A stretch of DNA of 64,000 nucleotides from Seleniivibrio woodruffii (GTDB lineage: Bacteria > Chrysiogenota > Deferribacteres > Deferribacterales > Geovibrionaceae): assembly GCF_004339245.1 (NCBI RefSeq), contig NZ_SMGG01000003.1, forward strand, positions 930,770-994,769, given 5' to 3'. The notes below the pieces were generated by a model that ran no database searches, was not told where the DNA came from, and saw only the letters and a list, made by a program, of their open reading frames with translations. Positions 32,119-47,469 of this stretch are shown here, in pieces (within the stretch, counting starts at the first letter, position 1; every line of letters starts with the position of its first letter). The position numbers and the translations under genes were made by a program.

Positions 32119-32146
32119 TAAAGAATCCTTCTGAAAGTGTCGATGA
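32119..32146 (+). promoter_or_regulatory. Probable sigma-28 promoter of first flagellin
   Basis: TAAAGAAT (32119-32126), 12 nt, GTCGATGA (32139-32146), compared with the sigma-28 consensus TAAAGTTT-N11-GCCGATAA. Transcription would begin near 32153, giving a leader of about 48 nt that opens with the GGA-loop hairpin. Confidence 0.6.
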
Positions 32147-32153
32147 GAAAAAT

Positions 32154-32167
32154 GCGCAAGGATGCGC
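32154..32167 (+). promoter_or_regulatory. GGA-loop leader hairpin (probable CsrA site), flagellin 1
   Basis: GCGCA-AGGA-TGCGC forms a perfect 5-bp stem with an AGGA tetraloop and contains CAAGGATG, the core of the CsrA SELEX consensus. It lies 23 nt before the Shine-Dalgarno GGAGG (32191-32195). Equivalent hairpins with different stems precede the other two flagellins. Confidence 0.7.
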
Positions 32168-32200
32168 GTGACCTCTATTGAAACAATCAAGGAGGATAGA

Positions 32201-34582
32201 ATGGCACTCACAGTCTATCAAAACATCATGTCTTTGAACTCGCAAAGACACCTGGGCTCCAGCCAGACAGCGCTGGCAACATCAATCGAAAGGCTCTCAT
32301 CAGGGCTTCGTATCAACCATGCAGCAGACGACGCTTCGGGTCTTGCAATATCTGAGAAATTGAGAGGTCAGATCACCGGTCTTAAACGTGCGGCTATGAA
32401 CGCACAGGACGGTATCTCAATGTTGCAGACGGCAGAAGGCGCACTTGAGGAAGTAAGCTCAATGCTGCAGAGAATGCGTGAGCTCGCAGTACAGGCTTCA
32501 AACGGCGTGTACACTTCAAACGACCGTATTGAAATCCAGAAAGAAGTTGAACAGCTTAAGGGCGAGATCGACAGAATCTCCTCTGCTACAGAGTTCAACA
32601 CCAAAAAACTGCTGAACGGCGACGGAACAGCTCTCTGGTCCGCAAGCTCCAGCAAAATCAAAGCTATAATCAGGGATGAGGTTGACGAAGGCAACTACAG
32701 AATCAACCTTGAAACCATTCCCGGATCAAACGAGATCTACAAAACCGACATCATGACGCTGAAAGACGGCGCAATCGGTTCTGAGATCGTTGACGGAACA
32801 AACGACACAAATATAGGCAGCGTAAACAATGCCAGCCAGCTTGCCTCAACAGGCACAAGCTACTACACAGTCACAGTTGGCGACCTGACTGCCGCACAGA
32901 GTGCGACAATAAGCCTTACCGGCTCATATCTGCAGACAGGATCATCTTTCTCCGTGGCCGCTGCCGGATACAGCAACTCAGCTGCAACGTCTTCCGGTTA
33001 CATTGAAGTTGTTTTCGAAGACAACGTCTCTGCAAACGGAACAACATCCGCTCAGATCAGATATATCGATGCCCTTACAGGCTATATATCCGAGTGGGAA
33101 GAGGTCGACGTTACGGCTCTTAACGGCACAGTGAGCCTTACTGCAGCCGACACGACCAACCTTATGAACTCCGCAGGCCAGTCTCTGGGATTCGATCTCC
33201 AGCTCAGCCTCGGCGTTAACGGTAAAATTCAGAACGGCGACAAAGTTCTGCTCAGCTTCTCCGGAGCGAACGCAGCCCCTGCAGGCAGTGTAGCCTCATC
33301 AGGCGGCGGTACTGTTCAGATTTCCGGCGGCCCCACAGGACAGGCAGGCCCCACTCTGAAGTTTACCTCTCCCTCCTCGCTCACAGCGAAGGACAACGGA
33401 GACAACTTTGTCGATACTCAGGCCAAAACAGTTTACTATGCTAGCATCAACGCTCAGACAGGTAACGTTGACTTTGGTAACATGACAATCAACTTTAAAG
33501 AGAACAACAACGCTACTGAATCAAACGGTGAGACAGTTCTCGGCGACCTCAGCCTCAAGATCAGCGGGTCTGGTGAAGCAGCAGCCACAACCACCAAGCT
33601 CAAAGATATTGCAGTGTTTGAAGATTCCGACGGAAACAACCTCTTCTCAAACAAACAGGAACTGACAGTTTGGGGCAACGGCACATCCGCAGTGATCTAC
33701 CTTGAAGCGGATGACACCATTGCAGACTTTGAAACAAAACTCACAGACGCTATCGTTAACAAACTTGGCATGGGTTCAACCAACAACAACGTTAACAGCC
33801 ACCTTGTGGACTATGTTTCAATCCCCACAACATCAGGCGGAATCCAGTCCGTAGCGGGTACGTTCATAATCCAGACCGCACTCACAGGCGAACAGGGTCA
33901 GGTTGCTTTCTCCGGCGATGAAGAACTCATCAACGGTCTGAGCCTTAACAAGATCCAGTCCGCAGTGAACAACACCACAAAAGTGACCGTATACGATGCC
34001 CACTCAGGCCAGCTTGTCGGAACTGACGAAACAGGCAACGACAGAGTATTCGGAATCATCGGCGGTGTTGAGATCGCTCTCGACTCCAGAGCAGGCGTTA
34101 CAGAGTCATGGGACACCTCTAAGAATCAGGTGATCTTCTCAACAAACTCTGCCGCAGCAAAAGAGGACTATTTCCTCCACATCGTGGACAACTCCACCGA
34201 CCTGCAGATCGGAGCTAACTCCGGTCAGACACTTGCGGTGAGCATTCCCCAGCTCGATGTTACAGGTCTCGGCCTGAACAACATCACTCTGGTTTCTCAG
34301 GACCTTGCGCAGGCCGCAATTCCTGATATCGATGCCGCAATCAGCCAGGTGGTAAGCGTCAGAGCGACTATCGGTGCTCAGGTCAACAGACTGGAACACA
34401 CCATCGCAAACCTGCAGACCGCTGAAGAGAACATGACAGCGGCTGAATCAAGGATCCGCGACCTTGATATGGCAGAAGAGATGTCTACATTTACAAGGTA
34501 TCAGATGCTCGGCCAGGCCGGCGTATCAATGCTGGCACAGGCCAACCAGATACCCCAGATGGCACTTCAGCTCCTTCAGTAA
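32201..34582 (+). CDS. Flagellin (giant, 793 residues)
   Basis: Starts at ATG 32201 after a strong AAGGAGG; an in-frame ATG at 32162 lies in the leader hairpin and is rejected. Conserved D0/D1 ends are present (LSSGLRINHAADDASGLAIS, QDGISMLQTAEGALEEV; C-terminal SRIRDLDMAEEMSTF and MLAQANQIPQMALQLLQ). Between them is a central region of about 500 residues, rich in Ser, Thr, Ala and Gly, so the protein is far longer than the usual 280-500 residues. The centre is clearly related to those of the two downstream flagellins but more diverged. It is followed by a DUF2292 gene. Confidence 0.96.
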   Translation: MALTVYQNIMSLNSQRHLGSSQTALATSIERLSSGLRINHAADDASGLAISEKLRGQITGLKRAAMNAQDGISMLQTAEGALEEVSSMLQRMRELAVQASNGVYTSNDRIEIQKEVEQLKGEIDRISSATEFNTKKLLNGDGTALWSASSSKIKAIIRDEVDEGNYRINLETIPGSNEIYKTDIMTLKDGAIGSEIVDGTNDTNIGSVNNASQLASTGTSYYTVTVGDLTAAQSATISLTGSYLQTGSSFSVAAAGYSNSAATSSGYIEVVFEDNVSANGTTSAQIRYIDALTGYISEWEEVDVTALNGTVSLTAADTTNLMNSAGQSLGFDLQLSLGVNGKIQNGDKVLLSFSGANAAPAGSVASSGGGTVQISGGPTGQAGPTLKFTSPSSLTAKDNGDNFVDTQAKTVYYASINAQTGNVDFGNMTINFKENNNATESNGETVLGDLSLKISGSGEAAATTTKLKDIAVFEDSDGNNLFSNKQELTVWGNGTSAVIYLEADDTIADFETKLTDAIVNKLGMGSTNNNVNSHLVDYVSIPTTSGGIQSVAGTFIIQTALTGEQGQVAFSGDEELINGLSLNKIQSAVNNTTKVTVYDAHSGQLVGTDETGNDRVFGIIGGVEIALDSRAGVTESWDTSKNQVIFSTNSAAAKEDYFLHIVDNSTDLQIGANSGQTLAVSIPQLDVTGLGLNNITLVSQDLAQAAIPDIDAAISQVVSVRATIGAQVNRLEHTIANLQTAEENMTAAESRIRDLDMAEEMSTFTRYQMLGQAGVSMLAQANQIPQMALQLLQ

Positions 34583-42057: not shown

Positions 42058-42085
42058 TTAAGTTTTGATTCAGCCATGACGATAC
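42058..42085 (+). promoter_or_regulatory. Probable sigma-28 promoter upstream of flagellin 2
   Basis: TTAAGTTT (42058-42065), 12 nt, GACGATAC (42078-42085), compared with TAAAGTTT-N11-GCCGATAA. The same pair with an 11-nt spacer precedes flagellin 3. It is about 260 nt before the flagellin start, and an intrinsic terminator lies in between. Confidence 0.65.
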
Positions 42086-42091
42086 TAACAT

Positions 42092-42169
42092 CACAACAGA
42101 AGAATATGAAAAAAGGTACTGAAACAATCAGACCGATGACTGTAGGAAATACAGCGTCGGTCTTTTTTT
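42092..42169 (+). ncRNA. Short sigma-28 transcript or attenuated leader before flagellin 2
   Basis: From the expected start to the T-run is about 78 nt. It contains the block GGTACTGAAACAATCAGACC, nearly identical in the copy before flagellin 3, and ends in hairpin 42130-42163: AGACCGATGACTGTA pairs with TACAGCGTCGGTCT (one bulge) around the loop GGAAA, then a T-run. It is either a small RNA or a leader whose terminator controls read-through into the flagellin. The GGA at the loop apex suggests CsrA binding. Confidence 0.55.
42130..42169 (+). terminator. Intrinsic terminator/attenuator with GGAAA loop
   Basis: A stem of about 14 bp with a single bulge and a 5-nt loop GGAAA, followed by seven T. 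It lies between the sigma-28 promoter and flagellin 2, about 176 nt before its start, so it must be passed or bypassed for flagellin expression. Confidence 0.8.
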
Positions 42170-42304
42170 GTTTTCAGCCTGACTAAAGGGGTGGCATTCT
42201 CTAAGAAGGATTGTCAAAAACACAGCACATAACAGGAACTAGAGTCAGGACGACTCTGAAACGACACACAGTTTAATAATATTTTTTTGCCATTGTACAC
42301 ACCA

Positions 42305-42320
42305 CCGGCACGGATGCCGG
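42305..42320 (+). promoter_or_regulatory. GGA-loop leader hairpin (probable CsrA site), flagellin 2
   Basis: CCGGCA-CGGA-TGCCGG: a perfect 6-bp stem and a CGGA tetraloop, 13 nt before the Shine-Dalgarno GGAGG (42334-42338). It shares the core GCA-NGGA-TGC with the other two flagellin leaders. Confidence 0.75.
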
Positions 42321-42345
42321 GGTCAGATTACACGGAGGTAATATC

Positions 42346-44739
42346 ATGGCACTTACAGTTTACACAAACGTAAACTCTATCATGGCGCAGAGTTACGTAA
42401 ATCAGACAAGCAACAACATCTCAAAAAACCTTGAAAAACTTTCATCCGGTCTCAGAATAAACAGCGCAGCAGACGACGCATCTGGTCTTGCTATTTCTGA
42501 GAAACTTCGCGGACAGATCTCCGGTCTCAAAAGAGCATCCATGAACGCCCAGGACGGTATCTCTATGCTTCAGACTGCTGAAGGCGGTCTTGCTACCATT
42601 CAGTCTATGACACAGAGAATGAGAGAGCTGGCTGTTCAGGCGGCCAACGGCGTTTACACTTCAAACGACCGTGCGGAGATCCAGAAAGAGGTTGACCAGC
42701 TGAAAGCTGAGATCGATCGTGTGGCTTCATCCACAGAGTTCAACACCAAAAAACTCCTTAACGGAAACGCCACAGCCCTTTGGTCTACAGACAAGACATC
42801 TGCTATCGATGTTGTTGTGAAAGGCAAAGTTGCGGAAGGCAACTATAACCTCGATATTGATGTAACTGCCGGTAAAAACTATGTCTACAAATCAGACGTT
42901 ATGACACTTAACGAGTCCTCAATCGGCGGCGAGATCGTTGAAGACGGCGCAGCAGGCGACAACGACTCAAACGTTCTGTCTGTAACAGACATCAAAACCA
43001 TGGCCACATCAGGAACAAGCTACTACACAGTTAATGTGGGCGACGTTTCTGCCAACACATCTGCAACTATGACAGTCACAGGCACCTTCCAGCAGGCAGG
43101 TTCCTCGTTCTCAGTTGCATCTGCGGCCACTGTTTCAACTGCAACTTCATCCGGCTACGTCGAAGTTAAATTCGATCAGGATGTAACAGCAGGCGCAACC
43201 GCAATCTCTGCTAAAATAAGATTCATCAACGCCAAAACAGGCACAGTGGGCGACTGGGTAACAGTCACTGCATCTGCAACTGGCGGCACTATCAGCATAT
43301 CTTCAGCTGACACAGCGGCTCTGACAGACACAGCCGGCGGCACTCTGGGATTCGACATGAGCCTCAGCCTCGGCGTTAACGGCAAGATCCAGTCAGGCGA
43401 TAAAGTCCTTCTGGCTCAGTCAGGCAGTGTTACAACTGCGGACAGCATCGCATCATCAGGCGGCGGTACAATCAAGATATCTGACGGCCCCGCAGGACAG
43501 TCAGGCCCCACAATCAACTTTACAACTGCAAGCTCTCTGACCAAGAAAGATAACGGCGACAACATCGTAGATGCTAACAACGTAACAGTTTACTACGCAT
43601 CCATCGACAGCAGTACCGGCAACATTGACCTTGGTTCAATGAGCATCAACTTTAAAGAAGGCAGCAACGCTACAGATGCCAACGGTCTCACCAAGACCGA
43701 CTCCTTCAACCTTGAAGTGAGAGGCGGCGGAGATGTTGCGACCTCAACAACAAAACTCAGAGACATCGCTTTGTTCACAACTGACGACGGACGCAACCTG
43801 TTCGACCAGACTCAGGAACTGACGATCTTCGGCAACGGTTCATCAAAAACCATCTATCTGGAAGGCGATGACACAATAGCTGACTTCGAGAACAAACTCT
43901 CTGAAGCAATCAAGTCAATAGGAATGGGTGCGGACAGCTCAACCAGCGACACAGTTTCCGATGTTAACAACAACCTCGTTAACTACGTTACTCTTGCAAA
44001 AGATAACTCTAACGAAGCTGTTCAGGGAACTTTCGTAATCCAGACTGCGAAACTTGGCGAAGACAGCAAACTGTCATTCGTTGGCGATGAGAACCTCATC
44101 AACGCTCTGTCCCTTGCAAAAATTCAGGACGGAACAAACAGCGAACTGAACGTGACCGTTACTGACGCTCACACAGGCAAAACCATCGGTTCCGACAAGG
44201 TCAACGACTATAAACTGAAAGACGTTATCGCAGGCCTTGAAGTGAAAGTGGACAGCGCAGTCGGCCTCGACATCTCCTGGGACGACATAAGCAAAACAAT
44301 GACTTTCACCGGAAGCTCAGACAGCGTTAAACTCCACGTTGTCGATAACACAACAGAGCTTCAGATAGGTGCCAACGAAGGTCAGACCATCAACACAAGC
44401 GTTGCTCAGGCGGACACAAACGCCCTCGGCCTTGCAGATGTTCTGATGGTAGATCAGGAGAGCGCACAGTCGGCTATCACCAAGATAGACAACGCTCTGA
44501 ACAACATATCAAGCGCAAGAGCCACTCTGGGTGCTCAGATCAACAGACTTGAGTACACAATCTCCGGCCTTGATACCACAAGAGAGAACCTGACAGCTTC
44601 CGAGTCCAGAATCCGTGACCTGGATATGGCTGCTGAAATGTCAGACTTCACTAAGAACCAGATACTCAGCCAGGCCGGTGTGGCAATGATTTCTCAGGCC
44701 AACGCACAGGCTCAGCTGGCAATGCAGCTTCTCGGATAA
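42346..44739 (+). CDS. Flagellin (giant, 797 residues)
   Basis: Canonical flagellin ends (SSGLRINSAADDASGLAISE at the N-side; RIRDLDMAAEMSDFTKNQIL and AQLAMQLLG at the C-side) enclose a central insertion of more than 450 residues rich in Thr, Ser, Ala and Asp. It is nearly identical in length and very similar throughout to the next gene, with which it forms a tandem duplication that includes the upstream RNA element. The strong GGAGG at 42334 and the GGA-loop hairpin indicate high, regulated translation. Such long surface-exposed Ser/Thr regions are typical glycosylation targets. Confidence 0.97.
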   Translation: MALTVYTNVNSIMAQSYVNQTSNNISKNLEKLSSGLRINSAADDASGLAISEKLRGQISGLKRASMNAQDGISMLQTAEGGLATIQSMTQRMRELAVQAANGVYTSNDRAEIQKEVDQLKAEIDRVASSTEFNTKKLLNGNATALWSTDKTSAIDVVVKGKVAEGNYNLDIDVTAGKNYVYKSDVMTLNESSIGGEIVEDGAAGDNDSNVLSVTDIKTMATSGTSYYTVNVGDVSANTSATMTVTGTFQQAGSSFSVASAATVSTATSSGYVEVKFDQDVTAGATAISAKIRFINAKTGTVGDWVTVTASATGGTISISSADTAALTDTAGGTLGFDMSLSLGVNGKIQSGDKVLLAQSGSVTTADSIASSGGGTIKISDGPAGQSGPTINFTTASSLTKKDNGDNIVDANNVTVYYASIDSSTGNIDLGSMSINFKEGSNATDANGLTKTDSFNLEVRGGGDVATSTTKLRDIALFTTDDGRNLFDQTQELTIFGNGSSKTIYLEGDDTIADFENKLSEAIKSIGMGADSSTSDTVSDVNNNLVNYVTLAKDNSNEAVQGTFVIQTAKLGEDSKLSFVGDENLINALSLAKIQDGTNSELNVTVTDAHTGKTIGSDKVNDYKLKDVIAGLEVKVDSAVGLDISWDDISKTMTFTGSSDSVKLHVVDNTTELQIGANEGQTINTSVAQADTNALGLADVLMVDQESAQSAITKIDNALNNISSARATLGAQINRLEYTISGLDTTRENLTASESRIRDLDMAAEMSDFTKNQILSQAGVAMISQANAQAQLAMQLLG

Positions 44740-44760
44740 GAGAAGGCCCAAAGGAAACTA

Positions 44761-44789
44761 AGCGGGCCCTAAAAAGCCCGCTTTTTTTT
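44761..44789 (+). terminator. Terminator of flagellin 2
   Basis: AGCGGGC (44761-44767) pairs with GCCCGCT (44776-44782), followed by a T-run to 44789, 21 nt after the stop codon. Confidence 0.93.
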
Positions 44790-44801
44790 ATCCATATTAT
44801 C

Positions 44802-44828
44802 TTAAGTTTTTAGAAATTATGACGATAC
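44802..44828 (+). promoter_or_regulatory. Probable sigma-28 promoter upstream of flagellin 3
   Basis: TTAAGTTT (44802-44809), 11 nt, GACGATAC (44821-44828), just after the flagellin 2 terminator. It uses the same boxes as the element before flagellin 2 and has the exact consensus spacer. The 336-nt gap 44740-45075 is fully used: terminator, this promoter, the RNA element, a 125-nt stretch without recognised features, and the leader hairpin. Confidence 0.68.
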
Positions 44829-44834
44829 TAAGAA

Positions 44835-44906
44835 TATAAAAAATAAGAATAGGTACTGAAATAATCAGACCGATGCTCGTTGGATAAACGTCATCGGTCT
44901 TTTTTT
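44835..44906 (+). ncRNA. Short sigma-28 transcript or attenuated leader before flagellin 3
   Basis: Second copy of the element before flagellin 2, about 72 nt from the expected start. GGTACTGAAATAATCAGACC is conserved. The terminal hairpin pairs AGACCGATG (44867-44875) with CATCGGTCT (44892-44900); an inner stem CGTT/AACG closes the loop GGATA. The T-run ends at 44906. Stem and loop sequences differ from copy 1, yet the structure and the apical GGA are kept, which argues for an RNA-level function. Confidence 0.55.
44867..44906 (+). terminator. Intrinsic terminator/attenuator with GGATA loop
   Basis: A perfect 9-bp outer stem, a short internal loop, a 4-bp inner stem and a GGATA loop, followed by a T-run. 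It lies 170 nt before the flagellin 3 start. Confidence 0.82.
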
Positions 44907-45031
44907 ATCCACAGTTCCTGCGGGGGTGTTTCACTTTTCGAGTGTTTTATTATCGGTTTCCTAAAAGGACAAAAGAGCAGCAATGCTCTGCAAAAACAAC
45001 AGTTTTTTAGCTATTGCCATCATCCAAGCCC

Positions 45032-45047
45032 CCGGCATGGATGCCGG
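45032..45047 (+). promoter_or_regulatory. GGA-loop leader hairpin (probable CsrA site), flagellin 3
   Basis: CCGGCA-TGGA-TGCCGG: a perfect 6-bp stem and a TGGA tetraloop, 16 nt before the Shine-Dalgarno GGAGG (45064-45068). The loop base before GGA differs in each of the three flagellin genes, while GGA and stem pairing are kept. Confidence 0.75.
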
Positions 45048-45075
45048 AGGTAATTAATTACACGGAGGTAATATC

Positions 45076-47469
45076 ATGGCACTTACAGTTTACACAAACG
45101 TAAACTCCCTTATGGCGCAGAGTTACGTAAACCAGACAAGCAGCAACATCTCAAAAAACCTTGAGAAACTGTCGTCAGGCCTCAGAATAAACAGCGCAGC
45201 CGATGACGCATCGGGTCTTGCTATTTCTGAGAAACTCCGCGGACAGATATCCGGCCTTAAAAGAGCATCTTCAAACGCTCAGGACGGTATCTCCATGCTC
45301 CAGACAGCAGAAGGCGGTCTGGCAACTATTCAGTCAATGACTCAGAGAATGAGAGAACTGGCTGTTCAGGCATCTAACGGCGTTTACACTTCAAACGACC
45401 GTGCAGAGATCCAGAAAGAGGTTGATCAGCTGAAAGAAGAGATCGACCGTGTTGCTTCTTCAACCGAATTCAACACAAAAAAGCTCCTTAACGGAAACGC
45501 TACTGCTCTGTGGTCAACAGACAAGACATCCTCTATAGATGTTGTTGTAAAAGGTCAGGTTGCTGAAGGTAACTACAACCTTAACGTTGACGTTACTGCG
45601 GGCAAGAACAACGTTTACAAGTCAGACGTTATGACTCTTAACTCTGATGCAGTGGGCGGCGAGATCGTTGAAGACGGCGCAGCAGGCGACAACGATTCAA
45701 ACGTTCTGTCTGTAACAGACATCAAAACAATGGCTACTTCAGGTACAAGCTATTACACAGTTAACGTGGGCGACGTATCTGCAAACACATCTGCAACTAT
45801 GACAGTGACAGGTTCCTTCCAGCAGGCAGGTTCCTCATTCTCAGTTGCAACAGCAGCCACTGTTTCCACTGCAACTTCATCCGGCTACGTCGAAGTTAAA
45901 TTCGATCAGGATGTAACAGCAGGCGCAACTGCAATTTCTGCAAAAGTCAGATTCATCAACGCCAAAACAGGCGATGTGGGCGACTGGGTAACCGTTACAG
46001 CTTCTGCAACAGGCAGCACTATCAGCATATCTTCTGCTGACACAGCAGCTCTGACAGACACAGCCGGCGGCACACTTGGATTCGACATGACCATCAGCCT
46101 CGGCGTTAACGGCAAGATCCAGTCAGGCGACAAGGTTCTTCTTGCTCAGACAGGTAACGTTACAACCGCTGACAGCATCGCATCATCAGGCGGCGGTACA
46201 ATCAAGATATCTGACGGCCCCGCAGGACAGGCAGGCCCCACAATCAACTTCACAACCGCAAGCTCGCTGACCAAAAAGGATAACGGTGACAGCGTTGTAG
46301 ACACTAACAACGTAACAGTTTACTACGCATCCATCAACAGCGACACAGGTAACATTGATGTGGGTTCTATGACCCTTAACTTTAAAGAAAAGAGCAACGC
46401 AACCGACGCAAACGGTCAGACAACTACCGACTCCTTCAACCTTGAAGTGAGAGGCGGCGGCGACGTTGCAACATCCAGCACCAAGCTGAGAGACATCGCT
46501 CTGTTCACAACTGACGACGGACGCAATCTTTTCGACCAGACTCAGGAACTGACTGTTTTCGGTAACGGTTCATCAAAAACCATCTATCTGGAAGGCGATG
46601 ACACAGTTTCCGATTTTGAAAACAAAATGACAGAAGCTATCAAGTCTCTGGGCATGGGCGCAACAAGCAGCAACAGCGAAACAGTTTCCGATGTTAACAA
46701 CAACCTCGTGAACTATGTAACCAATGAAACTGACAACTCGAACGAAGCTCTGAAAGGTACTTTCGTAATCCAGACAGCAAAACTGGGCGATGACAGCAAA
46801 CTGTCATTCGTAGGCGACGAGAACCTTATCAACGCTCTGTCTCTGGTTCAGATTCAGAAAGGTGAGAACAGCGAACTGAACATCACCGTTACAGACGCTC
46901 ACACAGGCAAAACAATCGGTTCTGACAAAGTCAACGACTATAAACTGAAAGACGTTATCGCAGGCGTTGAGGTTAAAGTTGACAGCGCTGTCGGTCTTGA
47001 CATTTCCTGGAATGACACAGACAAGAAGATGACTTTCACCGGCAGTACTGAAGATATCAAACTTCACGTTGTTGACAACTCAACACAGCTTCAGATAGGC
47101 GCAAACGAAGGTCAGACCATCACAACAAACATCTCTCAGGCCGACACCAAGGCGCTTGGCCTCTCAGATGTGCTTATGGTAGATCAGGAAAGCGCACAGA
47201 AATCTATCACAACGATAGATTCAGCTCTGAACAAGATCTCCAGTGCAAGAGCGACAATCGGTGCTCAGATCAACAGACTTGAGTACACCATCACCGGTCT
47301 TGACACTACAAGAGAAAACCTGACAGCTTCCGAATCCAGAATCCGTGATCTGGACATGGCTTCAGAAATGTCAGATTTCACTAAGAACCAGATCCTCAGC
47401 CAGGCTGGCGTAGCTATGATTTCTCAGGCTAACGCTCAGGCTCAGATGGCTCTTCAGGTTCTTGGCTAA
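45076..47469 (+). CDS. Flagellin (giant, 797 residues)
   Basis: Same length and architecture as flagellin 2, with conserved ends (SSGLRINSAADDASGLAISE; RIRDLDMASEMSDFTKNQIL; AQMALQVLG) and a highly similar centre. Differences are scattered conservative substitutions, and codon choice also differs, so the duplication is not very recent. It has its own promoter element, leader hairpin and terminator, so it can be expressed independently. Confidence 0.97.
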   Translation: MALTVYTNVNSLMAQSYVNQTSSNISKNLEKLSSGLRINSAADDASGLAISEKLRGQISGLKRASSNAQDGISMLQTAEGGLATIQSMTQRMRELAVQASNGVYTSNDRAEIQKEVDQLKEEIDRVASSTEFNTKKLLNGNATALWSTDKTSSIDVVVKGQVAEGNYNLNVDVTAGKNNVYKSDVMTLNSDAVGGEIVEDGAAGDNDSNVLSVTDIKTMATSGTSYYTVNVGDVSANTSATMTVTGSFQQAGSSFSVATAATVSTATSSGYVEVKFDQDVTAGATAISAKVRFINAKTGDVGDWVTVTASATGSTISISSADTAALTDTAGGTLGFDMTISLGVNGKIQSGDKVLLAQTGNVTTADSIASSGGGTIKISDGPAGQAGPTINFTTASSLTKKDNGDSVVDTNNVTVYYASINSDTGNIDVGSMTLNFKEKSNATDANGQTTTDSFNLEVRGGGDVATSSTKLRDIALFTTDDGRNLFDQTQELTVFGNGSSKTIYLEGDDTVSDFENKMTEAIKSLGMGATSSNSETVSDVNNNLVNYVTNETDNSNEALKGTFVIQTAKLGDDSKLSFVGDENLINALSLVQIQKGENSELNITVTDAHTGKTIGSDKVNDYKLKDVIAGVEVKVDSAVGLDISWNDTDKKMTFTGSTEDIKLHVVDNSTQLQIGANEGQTITTNISQADTKALGLSDVLMVDQESAQKSITTIDSALNKISSARATIGAQINRLEYTITGLDTTRENLTASESRIRDLDMASEMSDFTKNQILSQAGVAMISQANAQAQMALQVLG

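Follow-up and report, generated by a model that had tools for sequence, protein, structure and literature searches.

The 64,000-nucleotide (nt) stretch of Seleniivibrio woodruffii DNA analysed here (contig NZ_SMGG01000003.1, positions 930,770 to 994,769; "the window") contains two tandem genes for major flagellins and, upstream of them, the gene of a second flagellin class with a hairpin at its Shine-Dalgarno (SD) sequence (SD-type flagellin; Table 1). As an earlier note on this DNA had described, both major flagellin genes are preceded by a sigma-28-type promoter, a conserved block and a terminator, and the two terminator hairpins differ in sequence yet keep their pairing. What the note had missed is that the block is itself a hairpin, termed H1, which overlaps the stem of the terminator (H2). 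A third copy of the leader outside the window, a variant of H1 at the SD of the flagellin gene starting at 32201, and CsrA-type GGA hairpins at the start codons had also escaped it. We consider it likely that the leaders of the major flagellins are transcription attenuators in which a factor bound to H1 would bring about read-through, and that the SD-type flagellin would respond in the opposite sense.

Table 1. Features of the flagellin genes and their leaders in the window (position 1 is the first letter of the window)
Feature	Position	Strand	Description
Sigma-28-type promoter, SD-type flagellin	32119..32146	+	TAAAGAAT-N12-GTCGATGA; predicted from sequence
CsrA-type hairpin, SD-type flagellin	32154..32167	+	GCGC-AAGGAU-GCGC
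SD-type H1	32172..32195	+	CCUCU-A-UUGA-AACAA-UCAA-G-GAGG; sequesters SD GGAGG; 24 nt
SD-type flagellin	32201..34582	+	MALTVYQNIMSLNSQRHLGS...; Flagellin_N match (contig position 962,970), N-terminal signature
Sigma-28-type promoter, flagellin 1	42058..42085	+	TTAAGTTT-N12-GACGATAC; -35 at 42058-42065, -10 at 42078-42085; matrix score 14.1
H1, flagellin 1 leader	42115..42134	+	Antiterminator-type hairpin GGUACUGAAACAAUCAGACC; 20 nt
H2, flagellin 1 leader	42130..42169	+	Intrinsic terminator; hairpin 42130-42163, T7 42163-42169
CsrA-type hairpin SL1, flagellin 1	42305..42320	+	CCGGC-ACGGAU-GCCGG; AnGGAn hexaloop
CsrA-type hairpin SL2, flagellin 1	42327..42342	+	ATTAC-ACGGAG-GTAAT; spans SD
Major flagellin 1	42346..44739	+	797 amino acids; Pfam Flagellin_N, Flagellin_C
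Terminator of flagellin 1	44760..44789	+	Divides the two transcription units
Sigma-28-type promoter, flagellin 2	44802..44828	+	TTAAGTTT-N11-GACGATAC; -35 at 44802-44809, -10 at 44821-44828; matrix score 14.6
H1, flagellin 2 leader	44852..44871	+	GGUACUGAAAUAAUCAGACC
H2, flagellin 2 leader	44867..44906	+	Terminator; hairpin 44867-44900, T7 44900-44906
CsrA-type hairpins, flagellin 2	45032..45072	+	SL1 45032-45047; SL2 over SD 45057-45072
Major flagellin 2	45076..47469	+	797 amino acids; Pfam Flagellin_N, Flagellin_C

The hairpin H1 and its overlap with the terminator

Flagellin N-termini were located in 50 genomes, and 80 upstream regions were compared. Terminator-type leaders share one order, namely a sigma-28 site, the 20-nt block, a terminator, a spacer of about 70-300 nt and the flagellin gene, and there are often several of them per genome. 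The exact block, GGTACTGAAA-N-AATCAGACC, occurs twice in the 2.9-Mb genome (a reversed control pattern does not occur); four relatives have a single copy each, and all these copies precede a flagellin gene. A third terminator-type copy in the genome lies outside the window; the third flagellin gene is followed by flaG, and a gene for an MptE-like/Maf-type flagellin glycosyltransferase is located nearby (L184:4580-6466).

The consensus of H1, GGU-A-CUGA-RANAA-UCAG-R-CC (20 nt), pairs at 1-20, 2-19, 3-18, 5-17, 6-16, 7-15 and 8-14, leaving A4 bulged and positions 9-13 as the loop; the minimum free energy fold of the isolated 20-mer is exactly this hairpin, at -5.3 kcal/mol, for both window copies. 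Copies were gathered by similarity to the consensus, and pairing was not used in their selection. The 31 distinct terminator-type copies are paired in all 217 cells; two-sided changes occur at four pairs, and the covariation is 0.325 as compared with 0.224 in shuffled alignments (as high in none of 500 shuffles). Addition of SD-type copies (alignment A2, 36 distinct copies) gave 252 of 252 paired cells. The 46 distinct copies recovered from Deferribacterales by covariance model, an alignment which was fitted to the H1 structure, are paired in 322 of 322 cells, with compensatory changes at five of the seven pairs and a covariation of 0.577 (0.265 in shuffles; 0/500). Slid H1 structures drop to about half; the values in the 46-copy alignment were 0.15-0.23 on displacement by one column. 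Position 4 is A or G, A12 is invariant in all 36 copies of A2, as is the A8-U14 pair, and the unpaired A4, A10, A12 and the loop are conserved; overall, H1 is conserved more strongly than the terminator itself. Rfam contained no family above its curated threshold for the leader element; permissive matches were mostly noise from eukaryotic snoRNA and miRNA families, far below threshold, and assignment to a known RNA family was dropped.

Positions 17-20 of H1 (GRCC), its last 4 nt, double as the first 4 nt of the 5' arm of the terminator; in the flagellin 1 leader the H1 3' strand and the H2 5' arm overlap at 42131-42134. Since the 3' arm of the terminator changes along with them (GACC/GGTC, GGCC/GGCC, GGCT/AGCC and AGCC/GGCT), these positions are constrained by two partners, and because the 4 nt are common to both stems, H1 and the full terminator are mutually exclusive. 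The leaders of both major flagellins thus hold a terminator hairpin and U-run between promoter and gene, together with a conserved, exclusive alternative hairpin, as an attenuator does. The terminator state is preferred over H1 by 4.0 kcal/mol in the flagellin 1 leader and by 1.3-9.0 kcal/mol in homologous leaders where a full terminator is present, so that a modest binding energy would suffice to flip the switch; since these energies favour the terminator, H1 presumably needs a stabilising factor. With H1 held, a trimmed terminator stem is still possible directly 3' of it, followed by 4 unpaired nt before the U-run. In five leaders (L087, L088, L094, L109 and L110), the promoter is followed by two successive H1-terminator units ahead of the gene, which fits two consecutive gates.

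Both window leaders fold more stably than shuffled sequence (z of -5.2 and -3.3 for leaders 1 and 2, respectively). Because flagellin 1 has a terminator of its own (44760-44789), the one at 44867 does not mark its end. The two window leaders also show a CTGAAA/TTTCAG pairing that flanks the terminator; it is lost in many homologues and was not considered further.

The hairpin at the Shine-Dalgarno sequence and its distribution

Leaders of the SD-type flagellins have a sigma-28 site near the gene and no terminator, and end in CCUCU-A-UUGA-AANAA-UCAA-G-GAGG-AU...AUG; where found, there is one per genome. Their hairpin differs from H1 in its lower stem, which is recoded to CCUCU/GGAGG and so pairs with the SD; it has the same loop, upper stem and bulged A as H1 and keeps the U-R pair 3-18. 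The N-terminal signature SLNxQ is present in 19 of 24 SD-type flagellins as compared with 2 of 46 of the other class; because this signature splits the classes, they look like an old paralogy, as far as the sequences tell. For the window gene, the ATG at 32201 is the conserved start; its longest open reading frame (ORF) would begin at an ATG inside the CsrA-type hairpin, at 32162.

As an independent test of the SD-type hairpin, a covariance model (R2) was built from terminator-type copies only. Its third-best match in the window is the SD-type hairpin (32176-32191; expectation value E = 0.01), and in all 24 SD-type leaders its match falls on the hairpin at the SD, in 22 of them at E <= 0.035 and in two at E = 2.8.

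A second model (R1), which includes SD-type copies, detected the two terminator-type H1 copies of the window genome-wide at E = 5.6e-5 and 8.1e-5, and at E < 0.01 only the four filament flagellin leaders were found in this genome; the next match (C8:37524, E = 0.076) lies inside an ftsA-like coding sequence and is attributed to chance. R1 matched 43 of 46 Deferribacterales genomes, and the three genomes without a match also lack a flagellin match. The match in genome G015 is in coding sequence, the score in G022 is just as weak, and G037 scores like coding matches of its relatives; the corrected count of H1-bearing genomes is about 40 of 46. In the family of the G015 leader (L089), H1 appears to be lost or strongly diverged.

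The leader motif was also found in Seleniivibrio and Denitrovibrio records, which belong to the order Deferribacterales. Genomes of the same class and the same phylum outside this order gave no R1 matches. Among 339 genomes outside the order, 18 had matches; ten of the 18 were inspected, and their matches lie in long open frames or away from flagellin genes, so that a wider spread of H1 was rejected. The exact SD-form pattern occurs in 12 Deferribacterota contigs of the contig collection and once in Desulfobacterales, there within coding sequence.

A proposed switch and its alternatives

In the proposed mechanism, sigma-28 RNA polymerase would start upstream and transcribe H1 and then H2. By default, H2 would form, reclaim 4 nt from H1 and halt transcription after about 80 nt. 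We infer that H1 is recognised by a factor acting in trans, most probably an RNA-binding protein, through its bulged A, the loop RANAA and the closing A-U pair; with H1 held, the terminator would lose its lower four pairs beside the U-run, and polymerase would read through into the flagellin gene. On the mRNA of the SD-type flagellin, apparently the older paralogue, bound H1 would block the ribosome and unbound H1 would open the SD, so that a single factor would act on the two flagellin classes in opposite senses. The main prediction is that the two classes respond oppositely, whichever the direction, and H1 could serve as bait sequence for fishing out the factor. The same small hairpin is placed on two output devices, a terminator and a ribosome site, in paralogous genes, and is kept order-wide with compensatory changes. 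Whether this amounts to an order-wide switch, with one dedicated RNA-binding factor and a 20-nt hairpin exerting reciprocal control over two ancient flagellin classes, we would judge about evenly balanced, and we give the same even chance to filament composition being set by it through RNA, at a stage after sigma-28.

Several observations weigh against the attenuator. H1 by itself is weak (-3.3 to -5.3 kcal/mol). The gut-clade leaders L095, L101 and L104 (genomes G023, G029 and G042) retain H1 without a T-run in the next hairpin, and there its output is perhaps different; H1 is not recognisable before the flagellin of G015, and probably not before that of G022. In the whole-genome search with R2, the SD-type hairpin reached only E = 0.46, behind a chance match in the ftsA-like gene, and the claim of a shared hairpin therefore rests on its fixed position and its repetition in 24 leaders. 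Finally, searches of the genome yielded no factor. FlbT gave no match (the Caulobacter control matched), nor did the CAT_RBD domain (PF03123; controls matched in four genomes), and both FlbT and a BglG/SacY-type protein were rejected as the H1 factor. An ANTAR domain was not detected either, and the control genomes also gave none. The neighbourhoods of the flagellin genes and of csrA/fliW contain known genes only, CsrA being the sole RNA-binding candidate.

The terminated leader of about 80 nt might act in trans as a sigma-28-dependent small RNA (sRNA), either as an H1 sponge of the factor or by base-pairing, with read-through being incidental; we regard this as unlikely. A strong promoter followed by a terminator yields a discrete RNA, and from the arrangement of these signals the terminated RNA is probably still made; terminated leaders would bear the same hairpin as the SD-type mRNA, and sigma-28-dependent sRNAs derived from untranslated regions (UTRs) are known in E. 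coli (PMC10578931). However, the remainder of the 5' sequence is not conserved, the distance between promoter and H1 ranging from about 19 to 110 nt, and an sRNA role alone explains neither the tandem units nor the copy at the SD. Read-through, moreover, must occur, because no other promoter was found for the flagellin genes. The genome encodes the sigma factor FliA. In nearly every terminator-type leader, a sigma-28 position-weight matrix, trained on SD-type flagellin promoters and rather blunt due to some poorly chosen training sites, finds a site 5' of H1, for the most part with a score of 10-17. The best sites in the interval from terminator to ATG resemble shuffled sequence in score, in agreement with the earlier note, which had seen no clear promoter there.

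Direct sensing of a small molecule or of temperature by H1, as by a riboswitch or thermosensor, appears improbable. Conserved unpaired positions (A4, A10, A12) and a conserved loop would suit it, and terminators and SD occlusion are both in use as riboswitch outputs, but a 20-nt hairpin with one bulge and a 5-nt loop would be a very small aptamer, it is usually present as a single copy, and no Rfam class matches. Constitutive attenuation, in which the terminator does no more than reduce flagellin transcription, with H1 as a passive portion of it, is more improbable still: the terminator is there and partial termination needs no factor, yet H1 is conserved above the terminator, its unpaired letters are fixed (A12 in all 36 distinct copies), and it recurs at the SD, where there is no terminator. 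Binding of CsrA to the GGA in the terminator loop, by which it would be titrated or would decide termination, is barely credible. GGA is present in both window loops, and CsrA and FliW are encoded, but just 6 of the 47 homologous terminators have an apical GGA, the third copy of this genome not being among them; terminator-type H1 copies contain no GGA, and the conserved CsrA-type hairpins of these leaders are at other sites.

The earlier note had proposed either an sRNA of 70-80 nt titrating CsrA or a leader attenuator governed by a protein at the GGA loop. The former is not supported, as GGA is missing from 41 of the 47 loops and the CsrA-like AnGGAn hairpins sit at the start codons. The attenuator with a bound protein gains support in a sharper form: the 20-nt block, and not the GGA loop, is the conserved part and, from its covariation and its overlap with the terminator arm, most likely the bound element.

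Other leader elements are found 3' of the terminator. An SD-like AGGAGGTG or close variant occurs in about 25 leaders, well above shuffles (perfect or close in, among others, L053, L058, L061, L063, L064, L066, L069, L077, L079, L082 and L084), and also shortly after the terminator at window position 44906. Short ORFs 3' of the terminator have no consistent start codon in the leaders; the SD-like sequence is possibly a ribosome-binding mRNA stabiliser or belongs to very short ORFs. In L095, L101 and L104, an SD and an ORF of 9-10 codons (MRKAIYKIS or similar) lie downstream. Part of the family (L038, L041, L047, L051, L054, L057, L061, L064, L066 and L070) carries up to three copies of a TTCGACGC motif between terminator and flagellin gene.

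Relation to known systems

Control of flagellin is known at the levels of sigma-28 and FlgM, of CsrA and FliW, and of sRNAs. In Caulobacter, the protein FlbT acts on the 5' leader of flagellin mRNA; the proposed attenuator resembles it in that a protein would act on a flagellin leader, and differs in that this genome has no FlbT. A limited search of open-access full text turned up no attenuator of flagellin genes that includes a conserved antiterminator.

Hairpins with an AnGGAn hexaloop occur in most flagellin leaders of both classes across the order, as a rule 35-67 nt 5' of the end of the start codon. A second such hairpin lies over the SD in many terminator-type leaders; in SD-type leaders, H1 occupies the place of this second hairpin. 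The start-codon hairpins, unlike the H2 loop, have the features of CsrA elements and are predicted sites. The 45-nt leader of Campylobacter jejuni flaA likewise contains two ANGGA hairpins, the second over the ribosome-binding site (PMC4894983). This two-hairpin arrangement, as in the CsrA-FliW systems of B. subtilis hag and C. jejuni flaA, is the same as at 42305-42342 and 45032-45072, and csrA and fliW are neighbouring genes here. The start-codon element is, however, separate from and downstream of H1 and the terminator, which it leaves unexplained; CsrA/FliW-type control at the start codon would be a further, separate layer.

The sigma-28 sRNAs of the E. coli flagellar regulon (PMC10578931) share with the present leaders a sigma-28-dependent transcript and a terminator near its start, whereas here the flagellin gene follows the terminator, whose stem is overlapped by the conserved part. 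In ANTAR systems (EutV, AmiR, NasR), a protein-stabilised antiterminator is exclusive with the terminator, as proposed for H1. ANTAR targets consist of two hairpins with hexaloops bearing A1 and G4, some of them suggested to act on translation (PMC3369931), whereas H1 is a single hairpin with a 5-nt loop lacking the G and does not qualify as such a target. The ribonucleic antiterminator (RAT) is a single stem-loop of 29-30 nt that partly overlaps the terminator (PMC3369931, PMC12502629). Like the RAT of BglG, SacY and LicT, H1 is a short hairpin before an intrinsic terminator, overlapping its 5' arm, and only one of the two forms at a time; H1 differs in its length of 20 nt (24 in the SD form), in its sequence and loop, in preceding flagellin instead of sugar genes, and in being found also at the SD.

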